Part shown: positions 1-10,361 of the stretch, in pieces | Numbering within the stretch: position 1 is the stretch's first letter | Layout: every line of letters begins with the position of its first letter | Source of the DNA: Faecalibacter bovis | GTDB lineage: Bacteria > Bacteroidota > Bacteroidia > Flavobacteriales > Weeksellaceae | Assembly: GCF_017948305.1 (NCBI RefSeq) | Contig: NZ_CP072842.1 | Span: 1-35,000 of the forward strand | DNA: 35,000 nt | Reading direction: 5' to 3' | Notes under the pieces: model-generated | The model's input: the letters and a program-made list of their open reading frames with translations, nothing else | What the model was told of the DNA's origin: nothing | Databases searched by the model: none | Program-made: the position numbers and the translations under genes

Positions 1-1428
1 ATGACAATAACAGCAAACTCTGTGTGGGAAAACTGTTTAAAATACATCAAAGACAACATTGCCGAAGATGCATTTAACACATGGTTTTTGCCTATACGAC
101 CTGCAAAAATAAATGGTAACATTTTAACTATACAAGTTCCTAGTAAATTCTTTTATGAGTGGCTTGAGGAACATTATATCAAAATTTTAAAGAGCGCCTT
201 ACAACGTGAGTTAGGTGGAGACGCTAAATTGGTATATAGTATACTTATGGATCAAAAAACGCAAGGACGTGATCCATATACTGTTCGTATCCCAAGTTCA
301 AATAAAGAAAAGCCTCAACCACAAGAAGTTGATGCACCGATTCCGATGGATAAAACGAGATTAATGAATCCGTTTGTTATCCCAGGTTTACAAAAATTAA
401 AGATTGACTCTCAACTAAATCCAAATTATACTTTTGATAATTTTATCGAAGGTGAATCGAATCGTTTAGCTCGTGCAGCAGGTCGTGCGATTGCAAAACG
501 TCCAGGTGGAACATCTTTCAACCCGCTATTTATATATGGTAGTGTTGGATTAGGAAAAACACACTTAGTACATGCTATTGGTTTAGAAGTTAAAGAACTT
601 CATCCAGATAAAACAGTATTGTACGTTTCAACCGAAAAATTTACACAACAGTTTATTGAAGCTGTTAAAAATAATAACCAAAACGATTTCATCCACTTTT
701 ATCAAATGATTGATGTATTAATCATGGATGATATTCAATTTTTATCTGGAAAAGCGAAAACACAAGAAGTTTTCTTCCATATTTTTAATCATTTACACCA
801 AAGAGGTAATCAGATTATTTTAACATCTGATAAATCTCCGGCTGATATTCAAGATATGGAACAACGTTTAATTTCTCGTTTCAAATGGGGATTATCAGCA
901 GATTTACAAAATCCTGATTATAATACTCGTTTACATATTTTAAAACAAAAATTAGAGAAAGACGGAATTATTTTCCCAGATGAAGTAATGGATTATATTG
1001 CTCAGAATATTGATACCAATGTTCGTGAGTTAGAAGGTTCATTAAATTCAATCATCGCTCAAGCTACTTTAAACAAAAGAGAAATTACTTTAGAATTAAC
1101 AGCGCGTACGTTATCTAAATTAGTACAAACTGCTCGTAAAGAAATCTCTATCGAATACATTCAAAAAACAGTTTGCGAGTATTTTAAAGTTTCTATTGAC
1201 GACATTCAATCGAAAACTCGTAAACGTGATGTTGTACAAGCTAGACAATTAGCGATGTATTTCGCAAAACAATATACAAAAGCATCTTTAGCAAGTATCG
1301 GATCGCAAATTGGTAAAAGAGATCACGCAACTGTTTTACATGCTTGTAAAACAGTTAAAAACTTACAAGAAACAGATAAAGCATTTAGAGGATATATAGA
1401 AGATATCTCTCGTAAAATTGCGGATTAA
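1..1428 (+). CDS. dnaA: Chromosomal replication initiator protein DnaA
   Basis: The product (475 aa) is the AAA+ ATPase that binds DnaA boxes and opens the origin. An N-terminal interaction domain (about 1-85) is followed by a short linker. The ATPase core has Walker A at about 180-188 (GSVGLGKTH) and Walker B at 240-246 (LIMDDIQ). The C-terminal helix-turn-helix carries the DnaA signature RDHATV at 440-445. The length is normal for the family. The ATG is base 1 of the window, so the promoter and any upstream origin cannot be seen. A phosphatase and a methyltransferase follow on the same strand after 24 and 8 bp, so they are probably co-transcribed. Confidence 0.98.
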   Translation: MTITANSVWENCLKYIKDNIAEDAFNTWFLPIRPAKINGNILTIQVPSKFFYEWLEEHYIKILKSALQRELGGDAKLVYSILMDQKTQGRDPYTVRIPSSNKEKPQPQEVDAPIPMDKTRLMNPFVIPGLQKLKIDSQLNPNYTFDNFIEGESNRLARAAGRAIAKRPGGTSFNPLFIYGSVGLGKTHLVHAIGLEVKELHPDKTVLYVSTEKFTQQFIEAVKNNNQNDFIHFYQMIDVLIMDDIQFLSGKAKTQEVFFHIFNHLHQRGNQIILTSDKSPADIQDMEQRLISRFKWGLSADLQNPDYNTRLHILKQKLEKDGIIFPDEVMDYIAQNIDTNVRELEGSLNSIIAQATLNKREITLELTARTLSKLVQTARKEISIEYIQKTVCEYFKVSIDDIQSKTRKRDVVQARQLAMYFAKQYTKASLASIGSQIGKRDHATVLHACKTVKNLQETDKAFRGYIEDISRKIAD

Positions 1429-1452
1429 TCTTTGTTCTAAATAGCTCATACA

Positions 1453-1899
1453 ATGAAAATATTAATGGTTTGCTTAGGTAACATTTGCCGTTCACCTTTA
1501 GCAGAAGGTATTTTACAAGCAAAAGTTGGAGACAATCATATAGTAGATTCAGCTGGAACTGGAAATTGGCATGTTGGTGAACAACCAGATCGTAGATCTA
1601 TCGCTGTGGCTAAAAAATATGGTGTGGATATATCGGACCAACGAGCAATGCATTTTAATCCAATTTTCTTTGAAGAGTTTGATTTGATTTTTGCGATGGA
1701 TAAACAAAATTCTATCGATTTGCAGCAATTAGCTCGAACAGAAGAAGAACGTAATAAAATCAAATTAATTTTGAAAGAAGGTTTGGGCGTAGCGCAAAAT
1801 GTACCTGATCCTTACTACGAAAAAGATGAGGCTTTTGACCACGTATATCAATTATTAGATAAAGCAACTGATGGCCTTATCGAAAAATACAATTTATAA
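1453..1899 (+). CDS. Low-molecular-weight protein-tyrosine phosphatase
   Basis: This 148-aa cytoplasmic enzyme hydrolyses phosphotyrosine through a cysteinyl-phosphate intermediate. The P-loop CX5R lies at the extreme N-terminus (CLGNICRS, Cys7 and Arg13), and the general-acid motif DPYY is near residue 119, as in the LMW-PTP family. Length is typical. It starts 24 bp after dnaA and ends 8 bp before the methyltransferase gene, so the three probably form one transcript. The substrate cannot be read from sequence. No tyrosine kinase or exopolysaccharide cluster lies nearby, so a capsule role is not supported here. Confidence 0.93.
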   Translation: MKILMVCLGNICRSPLAEGILQAKVGDNHIVDSAGTGNWHVGEQPDRRSIAVAKKYGVDISDQRAMHFNPIFFEEFDLIFAMDKQNSIDLQQLARTEEERNKIKLILKEGLGVAQNVPDPYYEKDEAFDHVYQLLDKATDGLIEKYNL

Positions 1900-1907
1900 T
1901 ATCTATA

Positions 1908-2615
1908 ATGACAACTGCTAAAGTTTATCTTATCCCAAGTTTATTGGGAGAGAGTCCATATAACAGAGTTTTACCTGAATTTAACTTAGAAGTTATTCGA
2001 TCGATCAACACTTTTGTGGTTGAAAACGAAAAATCTGCTCGAAAATTCATCAAACAAGTTTGTCCTGAAAAAGTTCAAGCTGATTTAGATCTATATATTT
2101 TAGACAAAGATACAGACGCACAAGAATTATTTGAATTGGTTAAATTATTAGACCAAGGAAAAACAATTGGAATTATCTCTGAAGCTGGTTTACCAGCTGT
2201 GGCAGATCCAGGTTCACAATTAGTTAAAGTTGCGCAAGACAAAAAAATTCAAGTGGTTCCTTTAGTAGGACCATCATCTATTTTGATGGCTTTAATGGCT
2301 TCTGGAATGAATGGTCAAAACTTTGCTTTTCATGGTTATTTACCAATTGAAAAAAACGAGCGTAAAAAACGTTTAGGACAATTGGAAGCCGAAAGTTCGA
2401 AAACTGGAATTGCTCAAATCTTTATGGAAACACCATATAGAAATAATCAGATGATAGATGATTTAACGAAAATCTTACGCGCTGATACTAAAATATGTGT
2501 GGCTTGTGATATTACTTTAGAAACAGAAGACATCAGAACACGATCAATCAAAGACTGGAAAAAAGAAGATTATGATTTTCATAAACGTCCAGCTATATAC
2601 GTCATGCAAGCCTAA
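1908..2615 (+). CDS. SAM-dependent methyltransferase of the RsmI/tetrapyrrole-methylase fold
   Basis: The 235-aa protein resembles RsmI, which 2'-O-methylates C1402 of 16S rRNA. Landmarks are the glycine-rich stretch IISEAGLPAVADPGS (about residues 89-103), the VGPSSILMALMASG segment and the FHGYLP motif. The N-terminus (VYLIPSLLGE) departs from the usual RsmI opening, so this is the shorter Bacteroidota paralogue rather than a certain RsmI. Its rRNA substrate is inferred from the family. It follows the phosphatase gene by 8 bp. Its TAA overlaps the TAG of the convergent gene downstream, leaving no room for a terminator between them. Confidence 0.85.
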   Translation: MTTAKVYLIPSLLGESPYNRVLPEFNLEVIRSINTFVVENEKSARKFIKQVCPEKVQADLDLYILDKDTDAQELFELVKLLDQGKTIGIISEAGLPAVADPGSQLVKVAQDKKIQVVPLVGPSSILMALMASGMNGQNFAFHGYLPIEKNERKKRLGQLEAESSKTGIAQIFMETPYRNNQMIDDLTKILRADTKICVACDITLETEDIRTRSIKDWKKEDYDFHKRPAIYVMQA

Positions 2616-3256
2616 TTGATAGAATCTTTACTATCAACTAAAACATCAGGTTGACGATCTTTAGAAAAATCAAGAACAGCTTTAATATTTGCAAAAACCT
2701 CTCTGAATTTATGTTCATTGAGGTTTTTATATTTTGATCGATCCGCATTATATCCAATACAATCTACCCCCATCATTTTACCTAAAAAAGTTGCTCGAGT
2801 TAAATGAAAATTTTGAGTAATGTAAATCACTTTATCAAACTGAAAGATATTTTTTACCCTATAAACTGTACTATAAGTATCTAAACCACCTGCATCGATG
2901 TAAGTATTTTCAATCGGAACGCCATTATCCAAAATGTATTGCTCCATCACATCAATTTCATTAAAATTATGATTTAATCGTTCACCAGATAATATAATTA
3001 TATTAATCTTATCCGAATAGTATAAATCCAAAGCCGTGTCTAACCTATCTTTTAAATAAGTTCCAGGAGTTCCGTCCGGATTTAATTTTGCACCATACAC
3101 TACTCCTACTCTATATTTAGATGGAATATCAAATTTATCTTGAAAAATAAATCGTGAAGTATAGGCTTGTAAGCAGATAAGAAATACAAGAAGAGACAAT
3201 GTACCTATTATAAATAGTGCTGTAACTCTTGTAATTATAAATTTTCCTATTCGCAT
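2612..3256 (-). CDS. SanA/YdcF/ElyC-family (DUF218) membrane-anchored protein
   Basis: The protein has 214 aa. A single N-terminal membrane helix (about 8-30, FIITRVTALFIIGTLSLLVF) is followed by a DUF218 domain with VVYGAKLNPDGTPG, IIILSGE and YITQNFHLTRA segments, as in SanA and YdcF. SanA-type proteins affect envelope barrier function and vancomycin exclusion in enterobacteria. The biochemical activity is not established, and here the role is inferred. It is convergent with the methyltransferase gene, with stop codons overlapping by 3 bases. A CATCTTTG sequence at 3279-3286 (minus strand), 22 bp before the ATG, is one mismatch from the Bacteroidota -7 box and may be its promoter. Confidence 0.85.
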   Translation of the reverse strand: MRIGKFIITRVTALFIIGTLSLLVFLICLQAYTSRFIFQDKFDIPSKYRVGVVYGAKLNPDGTPGTYLKDRLDTALDLYYSDKINIIILSGERLNHNFNEIDVMEQYILDNGVPIENTYIDAGGLDTYSTVYRVKNIFQFDKVIYITQNFHLTRATFLGKMMGVDCIGYNADRSKYKNLNEHKFREVFANIKAVLDFSKDRQPDVLVDSKDSIN

Positions 3257-3356
3257 TTAACTGTTTAACTAACTTGTACAAAGATGTATGATATGATTTT
3301 AAATCAAAAAAATTAAATGCTAATTTTATACTAAATTTATAGACTTTTAAAATAGA

Positions 3357-4148
3357 ATGAATAAGATAGATTTAAGAACAGTTACTGTAGAGCGTTATTT
3401 ACAGGCTTTAAGAGAAGGTGGATCGCTTCCTGCATTAGCTGATGCTGATGATGGTTTTAAATATGTTTTAAAATTTAAAGGAGCTGGACACGGACCTCGT
3501 ATGTTAATTTCTGAATTATTAGGTGGTGAAATTGCTCGTAAATTAGGTTTTAAAGTGCCTGAATTAGTTTTTGCTTCATTGGATGTTGATTTTGGAAGAA
3601 CTGAAGCTGATGAGGAAATTCAGGATTTGTTAAAATTTAGTGAAGGAACAAATTTAGCTTTACATTTTTTATCCGGAGCAATCAATTACGATCCAGCGGT
3701 AATGACAATTGATGACAAATTAGCTTCGCAAATCGTTTGGTTAGATGCTTTTATAACCAATGTAGACCGTACCTATCGCAATACAAATATGTTGATGTGG
3801 AATAAAGAATTATGGTTAATTGATCATGGTGCTGCTTATTATTTTCATCATTCTTGGGATAATTGGGAAGCTTCTGCTAAAACAAAATTCCCACAAATTA
3901 AAGATCATGTTTTACTAAGAAATGCAACGAAACTTGAAGAAGTTGATGCTGAATTTAAAGCAATTTTAACGTGTGATTTTGTTGATGAATTAGTGGATTT
4001 AATTCCTGATGAATGGTTAGAAACAGAAGCTTATCACATGACTGAAGATCAAATGCGTTCGATATACAAAACGTTTATCAAAATAAGATTAGAAAACTCT
4101 ATTAACTTTATAAATGAAGCCAACGATGCAAGAAAAAATCTTATATGA
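3357..4148 (+). CDS. HipA-like kinase family protein
   Basis: The 263-aa protein resembles the compact HipA-like kinases (HipA_2 type). Visible kinase features are an N-terminal YVLKFKG strand with Lys39 as the likely ATP-binding lysine, a catalytic loop with Asp137, Arg138, Asn142 and Asn144 (NVDRTYRNTN), and a metal-binding IDHG at 155-158 in the position of DFG. It is much shorter than full-length HipA, and there is no HipB-type antitoxin beside it. Its last 23 bases overlap the DUF3037 gene, which implies translational coupling. A TAAATTTA at 3332-3339, 17 bp before the ATG, is one base from the -7 consensus. The target is unknown, and calling it a toxin would go beyond the evidence. Confidence 0.85.
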   Translation: MNKIDLRTVTVERYLQALREGGSLPALADADDGFKYVLKFKGAGHGPRMLISELLGGEIARKLGFKVPELVFASLDVDFGRTEADEEIQDLLKFSEGTNLALHFLSGAINYDPAVMTIDDKLASQIVWLDAFITNVDRTYRNTNMLMWNKELWLIDHGAAYYFHHSWDNWEASAKTKFPQIKDHVLLRNATKLEEVDAEFKAILTCDFVDELVDLIPDEWLETEAYHMTEDQMRSIYKTFIKIRLENSINFINEANDARKNLI

Positions 4149-7659: not shown

Positions 7660-7704
7660 AATGTATTATGTAAGAAGTAAAAAGTACTTTGTACTTAATA
7701 CATT
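7660..7704. repeat. AT-rich nested inverted repeat between sufC and sufD
   Basis: An inner 6-bp stem (AAGTAC 7682-7687 with GTACTT 7691-7696) lies within outer arms AATGTATTA (7660-7668) and TAATACATT (7696-7704), with 13 unpaired bases on one side. It lacks a T-tract, so it looks like an mRNA processing or stability element rather than a terminator. Function is not known. Confidence 0.4.
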
Positions 7705-7722
7705 TTACATTTTACAAAATGT

Positions 7723-8478
7723 TTAGATTCCTGCCTCTTCTTTAACCCAGTCGTAACCTTTTTCTTCTAATTCTAAAGCTAATTCTTTACCTCCAGATTT
7801 GATGATTTTTCCGTCCGCTAAAACGTGAACGAAATCAGGAACGATGTAGTCTAATAAACGTTGGTAGTGCGTAATTACTAAAACTCCGTTGTTTTCGTTT
7901 TTGAACGCGTTAACCCCTTCAGCAACGATACGTAAAGCATCAATATCTAAACCAGAATCAGTTTCATCTAAGATTGCTAATTTTGGGTTTAACATTAACA
8001 TTTGAAAAATTTCGTTACGTTTTTTCTCACCTCCAGAGAAACCTTCGTTTAAAGAACGAGATAAGAAATCTTTTTTGATTCCTAATAACTCAGCTTTCGC
8101 ACGAATTTCTTTTAACATTTCTGAAGCTCCCATTTCTTCTAAACCTTGCGCTTTACGCGTTTCGTTGATAGAAGTTTTGATGAAGTTTGTTACAGAAACA
8201 CCTGGAATTTCGATTGGGTATTGGAAAGACATGAAAATTCCTTTTTGAGCTCTCTCTTCTGGAGCTAACTCTAAAATTGATTCATCATCTAATTGAATAT
8301 CTCCTCCAGTTACTTCGTAATCTTCTCTACCTGTAATAACATTTGATAAAGTTGATTTACCAGCACCGTTAGGTCCCATGATTGCGTGAACCTCACCTGG
8401 ATTGATTTGTAAATTTAATCCTTTTAAAATTTCGCGCTCTTCGATTCGAGCGTGTAAGTCTTGTATATTTAATAACAT
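7723..8478 (-). CDS. sufC: Fe-S cluster assembly ATPase SufC
   Basis: SufC (251 aa) is the ABC-type ATPase that drives conformational change in the SufB-SufD scaffold. Walker A is GPNGAGKST (35-43), the ABC signature is FSGGEKKR (147-154), and Walker B is [12 protein letters not shown] (167-178), with the SufC-specific [12 protein letters not shown] wording. The HYQRLL switch region is present in the C-terminal third. There are no membrane segments, as expected for a soluble ATPase. Upstream in the transcript is the four-helix-bundle gene and its repeat array instead of sufB directly. The downstream neighbour is sufD. Confidence 0.97.
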
Positions 8479-8479
8479 T

Positions 8480-8519
8480 TTTTGCTAATTTGAAAATTAG
8501 TAAATGTGATAATTAGTTA
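8480..8519 (+). repeat. Array of five degenerate 8-bp units, left flank of the IVP gene
   Basis: Five contiguous octamers fit WTKWGNWA, for example ATTTGAAA (8488-8495) and ATGTGATA (8504-8511). The array begins 1 bp after the sufC start codon and ends 1 bp before the IVP stop codon. The same unit recurs on the opposite strand beyond the other end of the IVP gene (8869-8900), so the gene is bracketed by inverted octamer arrays. Confidence 0.6.
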
Positions 8520-8520
8520 A

Positions 8521-8868
8521 TCACTTTGATTTTGATGTACTTATAATCTTGTTCACAATTTTAGAAATATTAATTAATTTATCCATCAATATTTCATTGT
8601 TAGGATAGCTTTCAGATAATTGACATAATTCTAACCAATATTTAGTTTCATCAATTTCTTTTGCTGCAATTTTAAATTTGTGAACAAAATCATTTAAACT
8701 TTCAGCATTCTGAGCTTCCCTAATATTTGCACCTATAGAAGTCCCTGATTTTAATAATTGGTTTGAAATTACAAACTTTTTACTAGCTTCAAGTTCTTCA
8801 CAATAAGTTATAATTAAGAGTGAAAATTCTAAAGATAATTTTAAAATGATATTCTCTTTTTCCATCAT
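8521..8868 (-). CDS. Four-helix-bundle protein (23S rRNA intervening-sequence protein / S23 family)
   Basis: The 115-aa all-helical protein carries the family core NQLLKSGTSIGANIREA (about 37-53), then DFVHKFKIAAKEIDETKYWLELC (in pieces, about 61-83). Such proteins were first found encoded in intervening sequences of 23S rRNA, and relatives include the Avd accessory protein of diversity-generating retroelements. Here the gene sits alone between sufB and sufC, which is unusual for a suf operon. Both flanks are arrays of degenerate 8-bp units in inverted orientation, and its ATG directly follows the upstream array. No reverse transcriptase or template repeat is nearby. Its biochemical role is unknown. 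A small mobile passenger is a reasonable inference. Confidence 0.88.
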   Translation of the reverse strand: MMEKENIILKLSLEFSLLIITYCEELEASKKFVISNQLLKSGTSIGANIREAQNAESLNDFVHKFKIAAKEIDETKYWLELCQLSESYPNNEILMDKLINISKIVNKIISTSKSK

Positions 8869-8900
8869 TAACTCATTATCAAATTTTCACATTCTCACAT
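8869..8900 (-). repeat. Array of four degenerate 8-bp units, right flank of the IVP gene
   Basis: Read on the minus strand from 8900 to 8869, four contiguous octamers fit ATKWGNNA: ATGTGAGA, ATGTGAAA, ATTTGATA and ATGAGTTA. They fill nearly all the space between the sufB stop and the IVP start codon, and mirror the plus-strand array at 8480-8519. Confidence 0.6.
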
Positions 8901-8903
8901 TAA

Positions 8904-10361
8904 TTATCCTACAGAACCTTCTAATGAGATTTCTAATAATTTCTTAGCCTCAACAGCAAATTCCATTGGTAATTTATCTAAAACCTCGCGGCTGAAACCG
9001 TTTACAATTAAAGCAATTGCTTTTTCAGTATCGATACCACGTTGATTACAATAGAATAATTGATCTTCACCAATTTTTGATGTTGTCGCTTCGTGTTCTA
9101 ATTGAGCAGATTTATTCTCAATTTCGATGTAAGGGAAAGTATGAGCTCCACATTCGTTACCCATTAATAATGAATCACACTGAGAGAAGTTACGAGCACC
9201 TTCAGCACCTTTCATTACCTTCACTAAACCACGGTATGAGTTTTGAGATTTACCCGCAGAAATACCTTTCGAAATAATCGTTGATTTCGAATTCTTTCCG
9301 ATGTGAATCATCTTTGTACCTGTATCCGCTTGTTGGTAGTGATTCGTTACAGCGATTGAGTAAAACTCACCAACTGAATTATCACCTTTTAAGATACAAG
9401 ATGGATATTTCCAAGTAACAGCAGAACCTGTTTCAACTTGAGTCCAAGCAACTTTTGCATTTTTCTCACAAACTGCACGCTTAGTTACAAAGTTAAATAC
9501 ACCTCCTTTACCGTTTTCATCACCTGGGAACCAGTTTTGTACTGTTGAATATTTAATCTCAGCATCATCCATGATCAATAACTCAACTACAGCAGCGTGT
9601 AATTGGTTTTCGTCACGCATTGGTGCTGTACAACCTTCTAAGTAAGAAACGTAAGAACCTTCGTCAGCGATTAATAATGTACGCTCGAATTGTCCTGTAC
9701 CAGCAGAGTTGATACGGAAATAAGTTGATAATTCCATTGGGCATCGAACACCTTTTGGAATATAACAGAATGATCCATCAGAGAAAACTGCAGAGTTTAA
9801 AGCTGCGTAGAAATTATCTGTTGGCGGGACAACTTTACCTATATATTTCTTAACTAATTCTGGATATTCTTTGATTGCTTCTGAAATTGAACAGAAAATA
9901 ATTCCTTTTTCAGCTAACGTTTCACGAAACGTTGTTTTTACTGAAACTGAATCAAATACAACATCAATAGCAACTCCAGTTAAACGTTTTTGCTCGTCTA
10001 AAGAAATACCTAATTTCTCAAAAGTTTTTAATAATTCAGGATCAACCTCGTCTAAACTCGCTAATTCTTTTTTTGGTTTTGGAGCAGCATAGTATTGAAT
10101 TGCTTGAAAATCTGGTTTTTCGTAAGTTACGTTGGCCCATTCAGGCTCTTCCATTTTTTCCCAAGCACGGAAAGCTTCTAAACGCCATTCCGTCATCCAT
10201 TCTGGCTCTTCTTTTTTTGCTGAAATAGCACGCACGATGTCTTCATTTAATCCGACTGGGAATTCTTCATATTCCATTTCAGTCGTCCAACCAAACTCAT
10301 ATTGTTTTTGGCTAGCAAGATCTTCACGTAGATCGTCTTCTGTATATTTTGTGTTACTCAT
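8904..10361 (-). CDS. sufB: Fe-S cluster assembly scaffold SufB
   Basis: SufB (485 aa) is the scaffold subunit on which nascent Fe-S clusters are built. The N-terminal [20 protein letters not shown] block, the [19 protein letters not shown] stretch and the C-terminal conserved region with [19 protein letters not shown] and [12 protein letters not shown] are all intact. Length matches the family (about 480 aa). It starts 3 bp after an unknown secreted-protein gene, and the iscA-like gene precedes that, so these lie in one operon. Downstream, the IVP gene with its octamer arrays separates it from sufC. Confidence 0.97.

Follow-up and report, generated by a model that had tools for sequence, protein, structure and literature searches.

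Genes of the PF05635 family, which encode four-helix-bundle proteins of the 23S rRNA-intervening sequence type (here IVP), are common and, to our knowledge, without known function. REPIN/RAYT systems consist of a Y1 transposase gene flanked by inverted repeats that are also dispersed as gene-less pairs, with long vertical persistence, and Rickettsia palindromic elements are found in frame inside protein genes. The closest known element to the locus described here is the 23S rRNA intervening sequence, in which RNase III cuts 28-bp inverted repeats on either side of an S23 gene and for which the origin is given as unclear (PMC4990558). For the protein, homology between PF05635 and Avd has been suggested, and a reference title in the same source describes the family member XCC0516 as an assembly of five four-helix bundles (PMC10053308; chain 2gsc_A). 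Heptamer arrays have been described with no agreed role or mechanism in the accounts seen (PMC2670836, PMC4679880): the cyanobacterial 7-bp repeats are hairpin-capable and without known function, with a role in transcript stability or translational coupling suggested (PMC2670836), the Beggiatoaceae TAACTGA repeats are thought to be horizontally spread by no evident mechanism (PMC4679880), and 70 and 75 inverted GGGAATC pairs were reported in two species of Xanthomonas (PMC4692102). The terms "S23" and "four helix" have 0 occurrences in PMC4692102 and PMC4679880, and no paper linking S23/IVP genes to such arrays was found in the searchable part of the open-licence PMC literature.

The examined window is a stretch of 35,000 nucleotides from Faecalibacter bovis (contig NZ_CP072842.1, positions 1 to 35,000). 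An earlier note had placed an IVP-family gene between sufB and sufC in it, and the gene (8521..8868, minus strand, 115 aa) does match PF05635 with 72.8 bits against a curated cut-off of 33.8. The upstream ORF is sufB (8904..10361, minus strand) and the downstream one sufC (7723..8478, minus strand), for which orthologues were found in 14/14 genus genomes; the names of both, as that of sufD, come from reading the peptides. Directly 5′ of the IVP start codon lie four contiguous ATKWGNNA octamers on the minus strand (the left arm, 8869..8900, period-8 tandem score 15.2), and directly 3′ of its stop codon lie five contiguous WTKWGNWA octamers on the plus strand (the right arm, 8480..8519), inverted relative to the left arm, exactly as the earlier note had described them. 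When the right flank is reverse-complemented, the left flank is identical to it in 27/34 ungapped columns (z = 4.1 inverted and -1.3 direct, 400 shuffles), and the two arrays together with the gene fill almost the whole sufB-sufC spacer, as had also been stated. This cassette shares with the 23S rRNA intervening sequence the protein family, the terminal inverted repeats and the placement in a transcribed operon; it differs from it in lying between protein genes and in having arms made of short-unit arrays, and no G-U signature of RNA pairing was found in cassettes of the window type. Insertion in rRNA was considered and rejected: the window cassette is placed between two protein genes, sufB and sufC, the window gave no Rfam match at gathering score, and 0/20 examined gammaproteobacterial IVP loci were within rRNA.

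Octamer arrays of similar quality turned out not to be common elsewhere in the genome, a point on which the earlier note had made its idea depend; 28 other stretches of 20 kb (560 kb, both strands) contained 0 runs of at least three WTKWGNWA or ATKWGNNA units. The same genome carries 3 IVP genes. In 595 kb of it, window included, of which 80 kb is intergenic, 9 intergenic tandem segments with a period of 7 or 8 were detected at a score of at least 11.5, and 3 of these abut or overlap an end of an IVP gene. An IVP-less, inward-facing pair of 7-bp arrays occupies the sufC-sufD spacer of the window (7661..7716, period-7 score 19.1), with a predicted hairpin of -18.1 kcal/mol (z -4.4); its unit type, by eye, is that of the IVP cassettes at the thiolase junction of other species (L016, L021 and L034), and the sufC-sufD spacer of other species holds different unit families. 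The groES-groEL spacer (named by reading) likewise contains an IVP-less array pair in this genome (L199, about 1600-1720) and an IVP cassette in another genome, G008 (L035). A 9-bp tandem repeat with the unit TTTTCCATC in about nine copies was also seen in this genome (L066:13619-13704).

PF05635 matches were identified in all 14 genus genomes (2 to 8 each) and in 116 of the 148 sampled phylum genomes (1 to 16 each). The flanks of 63 genus loci, 30 phylum loci and 80 named loci from many phyla were read by eye; most loci carry arrays of 7-8 bp units, which are usually inverted between the two sides, and the unit differs between loci. We scored left against right flanks by a z test, whose shuffles preserve single-base composition only and whose start codons are the ATG nearest the expected place, possibly off at some loci. 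Inverted flanks at z of at least 4 were found at 47/77 named loci (direct at 14/77), 16/30 phylum loci (direct at 2) and 14/62 genus loci (direct at 7), the test missing many AT-rich genus loci; 31/62 genus, 12/30 phylum and 15/77 named loci were low both ways (z under 3). Gammaproteobacterial loci, sampled afterwards (29/30 tried, five at contig edges, 24 scored), were inverted at z of at least 4 in 20/24 cases and direct in 2, with one of the 24 (L218, score near zero) being the same place as the named locus L155, and in one gammaproteobacterial family (the set around G534) 12/22 were inverted and 1 direct. Control ORFs in the same named loci reached the inverted threshold in 8/169 cases, 4 of these 8 being IVP genes by reading, and further control ORFs were inverted in 2/40. 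On plasmids, 14 of the 38 IVP-bearing records, mostly cyanobacterial, were judged by eye; the arrays were inverted in 9/14 and of direct type in 4, and 1 had no arrays. These counts come from sampling that took the best-scoring IVPs first, with weaker family members under-represented, and related loci in them are not independent (e.g. L266 and L268; L279, L280 and L284). The earlier note had raised the idea of a small mobile element with octamer-built ends, and it is supported by finding, in every group sampled, arrays built alike at many or most IVP loci. Its proviso that relatives should not carry the gene with unrelated flanks has a divided outcome: the same octamers recur at the suf junction in 5/14 genomes, and loci elsewhere keep the build of inverted arrays with other unit sequences.

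Several loci in these sets have neighbourhoods of their own interest. In the gammaproteobacterial loci L276, L278, L279, L280 and L284 an IVP cassette lies directly before a tRNA read as tRNA-Gln, and on the cyanobacterial plasmids L247, L253 and L255 IVP genes are located, by the annotation, between cas6 and cas4 and between cas10 and a cmr3-family gene. A membrane-like ORF of 171 aa (L121:4630-5145) has strongly inverted flanks (z 22.7) that are unlike 7-8 bp arrays, and is possibly a different kind of cassette.

A tandem signal was clear in 75/154 named-locus flanks, with period 7 in 51, period 8 in 21 and period 9 in 3, compared with 1/154 shuffled flanks; tandem arrays of about 7-bp units in spacers are a trait shared with STRR, and the unit of the window itself is of 8 bp. 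Over the 94 loci with z of at least 3, arm identity was 79% over a median of 38 bp. In the left arm, read in gene direction, G outnumbers C at 70/77 loci and C outnumbers G at 4. Arrays at one and the same junction differ among species, as 21 distinct left arrays were present among 29 thiolase-junction loci, and left arms nonetheless fit their own right arms (mean 14.17) better than right arms permuted among species at the same junction (10.56), with 0/20,000 permutations as high. Within its junction, the own arm was strictly first at 16/48 loci, where about 6 are expected, and at three small junctions it was so in 1/5, 1/4 and 1/4. The arms are kept alike by some process while the unit sequence turns over.

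Comparison of junctions among relatives revealed several empty sites. At the fadB-to-thiolase junction (named by reading) an IVP cassette is present in 13/14 genus genomes, and in the remaining one (G013) only 3 nt separate stop from start, with neither array nor gene; the same 3 nt, with neither array nor gene, were found in two genomes of the same order (G147 and G101), which have no PF05635 match anywhere. The sufB-sufC junction holds the octamer cassette in five of the 14 genus genomes, another IVP with other arrays in G009, IVP-less inverted 7-mer pairs in six, an IVP-less 7-mer pair connected with the tail of an octamer cassette in G004, and in G006 a 26-nt spacer from which gene and arrays are both missing. 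Gene-less arrays are therefore common at this junction, but with another unit than that of the octamer cassette, and the varied contents indicate that the spacer was refilled more than once. The comparison of empty sites thus came out in favour of the mobile-element idea of the earlier note, and where a junction has empty sites, the whole cassette is either there or missing. On the IVP family tree (7 junction labels, 75 rows) the labels change 11 times compared with 42.7 when shuffled; the copies mostly follow their junction and movement is therefore rare. No target-site duplication was recognised by eye in the AT-rich spacers, and no direct sign of transposition was found. Some genus IVPs (L053, L059, L047 and L054) are split or have a stop codon, so copies decay.

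In four loci (L075, L091, L100 and L129) the IVP gene was identified inside a larger gene. The frame of the larger gene is +2 relative to the IVP, runs unbroken through it and beyond, and is open for 752, 728, 1103 and 1164 codons within the loci, respectively. Among 93 loci checked, exactly the three nested ones had no stop in the +2 frame and the other 90 had 5 to 23. Each of the four host genes gave a match to a DNA methyltransferase family, three to PF01555 and one to MmeI/N6_Mtase. Inverted arms were present at L075 (z 5.2), L100 (z 13.3) and L129 (z 5.6), and none was detected at L091 (z -0.9). The host ORF of L129 (nt 552-4043) has further arrays, which encode SQLSVTDNRKLITDN-like peptides, so that arrays seem to have entered its coding frame more than once. 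Short antisense frames across the IVP in L164, L173 and L177 were not taken as genes. The nested copies resemble Rickettsia palindromic elements in standing in frame inside protein genes, and differ from them in carrying a gene of their own in the second frame.

REPIN/RAYT systems resemble the cassette in having a gene with inverted repeats on both sides, probably also in that such repeats occur as dispersed gene-less pairs, and in long vertical persistence; unlike RAYT, the cassette gene is a PF05635 gene rather than a Y1 (HUH) transposase gene, and its unit sequence varies between copies. The genome of F. bovis gave one partial match to PF01797, covering 48/121 positions with 22.7 bits, or 23.7 bits when its frame neighbours are included, against a cut-off of 23, and 8/14 genus genomes gave none. 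Avd of diversity-generating retroelements is a suggested homologue of PF05635, but PF00078 (reverse transcriptase) has no match in the genome of F. bovis and none in 10/14 genus genomes. As there is no PF00078 match and only a partial Y1 match, neither a diversity-generating retroelement nor a RAYT is likely to drive the cassette here, and both candidates were set aside. IS and MITE elements also differ, since the cassette has no fixed terminal inverted repeats and its arm sequence differs between copies.

Taken together, we consider the cassette to be a unit in which the IVP is the dedicated protein, and the window copy to be one of a general class of inserted palindromic cassettes, with a probability of about 0.6. 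In this build the IVP gene has G-rich 7-8 bp units arrayed on its left and the inverted counterpart of that array on its right, and the recurrence of this layout in many phyla looks like a widespread and overlooked inserted element. Relatives of the IVP protein assemble into a pentameric ring and have been likened to Avd. The protein would act on the folded arms and recognise their hairpin form rather than a set sequence, so that cassettes with different units could persist or spread. Array pairs without an IVP would then be gene-less relatives of the cassette. That the protein reads the hairpin shape, and moves or maintains the element by it, is a tentative proposal, which we put at rather less than even odds.

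Perhaps another system makes and spreads array pairs, and the IVP is only carried in some of the loops without acting on the arrays. Pairs without the gene do occur, as in the sufC-sufD spacer of the window and in the inverted GGGAATC pairs of the two Xanthomonas species, as far as that account goes (PMC4692102), and they are common with the same polarity in G559, a genome with no PF05635 match, in which all ten both-strand clusters listed face inward likewise and the other clusters lie on one strand only. Published accounts of STRR, GGGAATC and TAACTGA describe, in the parts seen, arrays only, to which the IVP cassette adds a gene; all three are, like IVP arms, arrays of 7-bp units in spacers, and the GGGAATC arrays, like IVP arms, are often inverted pairs. 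At a junction read as accB-accC, GGGAATC-type arrays stand on both sides of an IVP gene (L298, L299, L301, L302 and L306), with a trace on the left side only at L309 and L311, and AGTAGGG-type arrays flank the IVP on a Nostoc plasmid (L248). In the G534 family, GGGAATC tandems were detected in 10/39 genomes without PF05635 and 9/20 with it, and one PF05635-less genome has 59 matches to the tandem; arrays can therefore persist in a cell that lacks the IVP, which speaks against the IVP as their sole cause. Gene-less inverted pairs of this family were matched to IVP arms by eye, not as a full census. On the other hand, matched arms are present at a large share of IVP genes and rarely at other ORFs of the same loci, and no period-7 or -8 intergenic array was found in 400 kb of four IVP-less Bacteroidota genomes (two of them GC-rich), compared with 9 (one poly-T) in 400 kb of four IVP-rich ones. 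We regard a carried IVP that does not act on the arrays as a serious competitor that is nevertheless somewhat unlikely.

The cassette may also have been domesticated as an operon spacer, with the IVP having a host function and the arrays tuning the translation or stability of the downstream gene. Purifying selection acts on the protein: comparison of four species gave a dN/dS of 0.09-0.19 for the suf copy, other sets gave 0.05-0.32, and values of about 0.1 mean that it is kept by selection. Long residence at the same junctions would suit such a role, as would the operon orientation of the IVP, which among loci with close neighbours is codirectional with both of them in 61/61 genus, 23/27 phylum, 57/70 named and 11/19 gammaproteobacterial cases; a comparable role has been suggested for the cyanobacterial 7-bp repeats, in the part of that account seen (PMC2670836). 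However, the cassette is cleanly absent from the same junction in relatives, and the IVP family occurs at unrelated junctions and also dual-coded inside methyltransferase genes, which makes domestication unlikely.

The earlier note had also raised a processing signal at the RNA level. A reading of this kind, which was considered, is that the cassette is an intervening sequence of the suf mRNA: its arms would pair once transcribed, and cleavage of the stem by RNase III would release the IVP segment from the mRNA. The precedent is the 23S rRNA intervening sequence with its S23 gene between RNase III-cut repeats, as that source presents it (PMC4990558), and the mostly codirectional IVP genes would suit it too. 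Own arms form a stronger duplex than swapped arms in 87/107 loci, which is expected, as any inverted repeat would give it, and the RNA of the window cassette folds, by prediction, better than shuffled RNA (z -4.4). But the predicted fold joins the window flanks by a short helix alone (8 bp in the MFE and 6 bp in the centroid structure), arm mismatches show no G-U bias on either strand (131 would-be G-U pairs in the transcript and 142 of the mirror type), and direct arrays occur at some loci. Together with the absence of rRNA copies among the gammaproteobacterial loci, this leaves the RNA-processing idea with little support, and we think it quite unlikely. RNA pairing as the cause of arm similarity is weakened by the same missing G-U bias and short flank helix; the likeness is probably not maintained by it, and hairpin-templated copying or a similar process at the DNA level would fit as its source.

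Chance arrays in AT-rich spacers, for which the genus set alone is weak counter-evidence (14/62 at z of at least 4), are refuted by the named (47/77) and gammaproteobacterial (20/24) loci, by the 0 octamer runs in 560 kb of the same genome and by a pattern that is equally strong in GC-rich genomes.

To return to the inserted cassette with a dedicated protein, its widest form is that IVP cassettes are mobile palindromic elements found across phyla, with ends coded by shape, as inward-facing arrays of whatever 7-8 bp unit, rather than by sequence, and with the ring-forming IVP as a dedicated mobility or maintenance factor; this we offer as a possibility, held with less than even confidence. If it is true, IVP cassettes would have gene-less relatives in the heptamer arrays of cyanobacteria, Xanthomonas and Beggiatoaceae, the 23S rRNA intervening sequences would be the special case of IVP cassettes that landed in rRNA, and such cassettes would also enter protein genes and be translated through in a second frame. 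The dual-coded IVPs in DNA methyltransferase genes would represent a rare case of a whole gene within the frame of another gene. The link between PF05635 and heptamer arrays makes both testable, as it joins a protein to a defined DNA or RNA partner and to natural empty sites.
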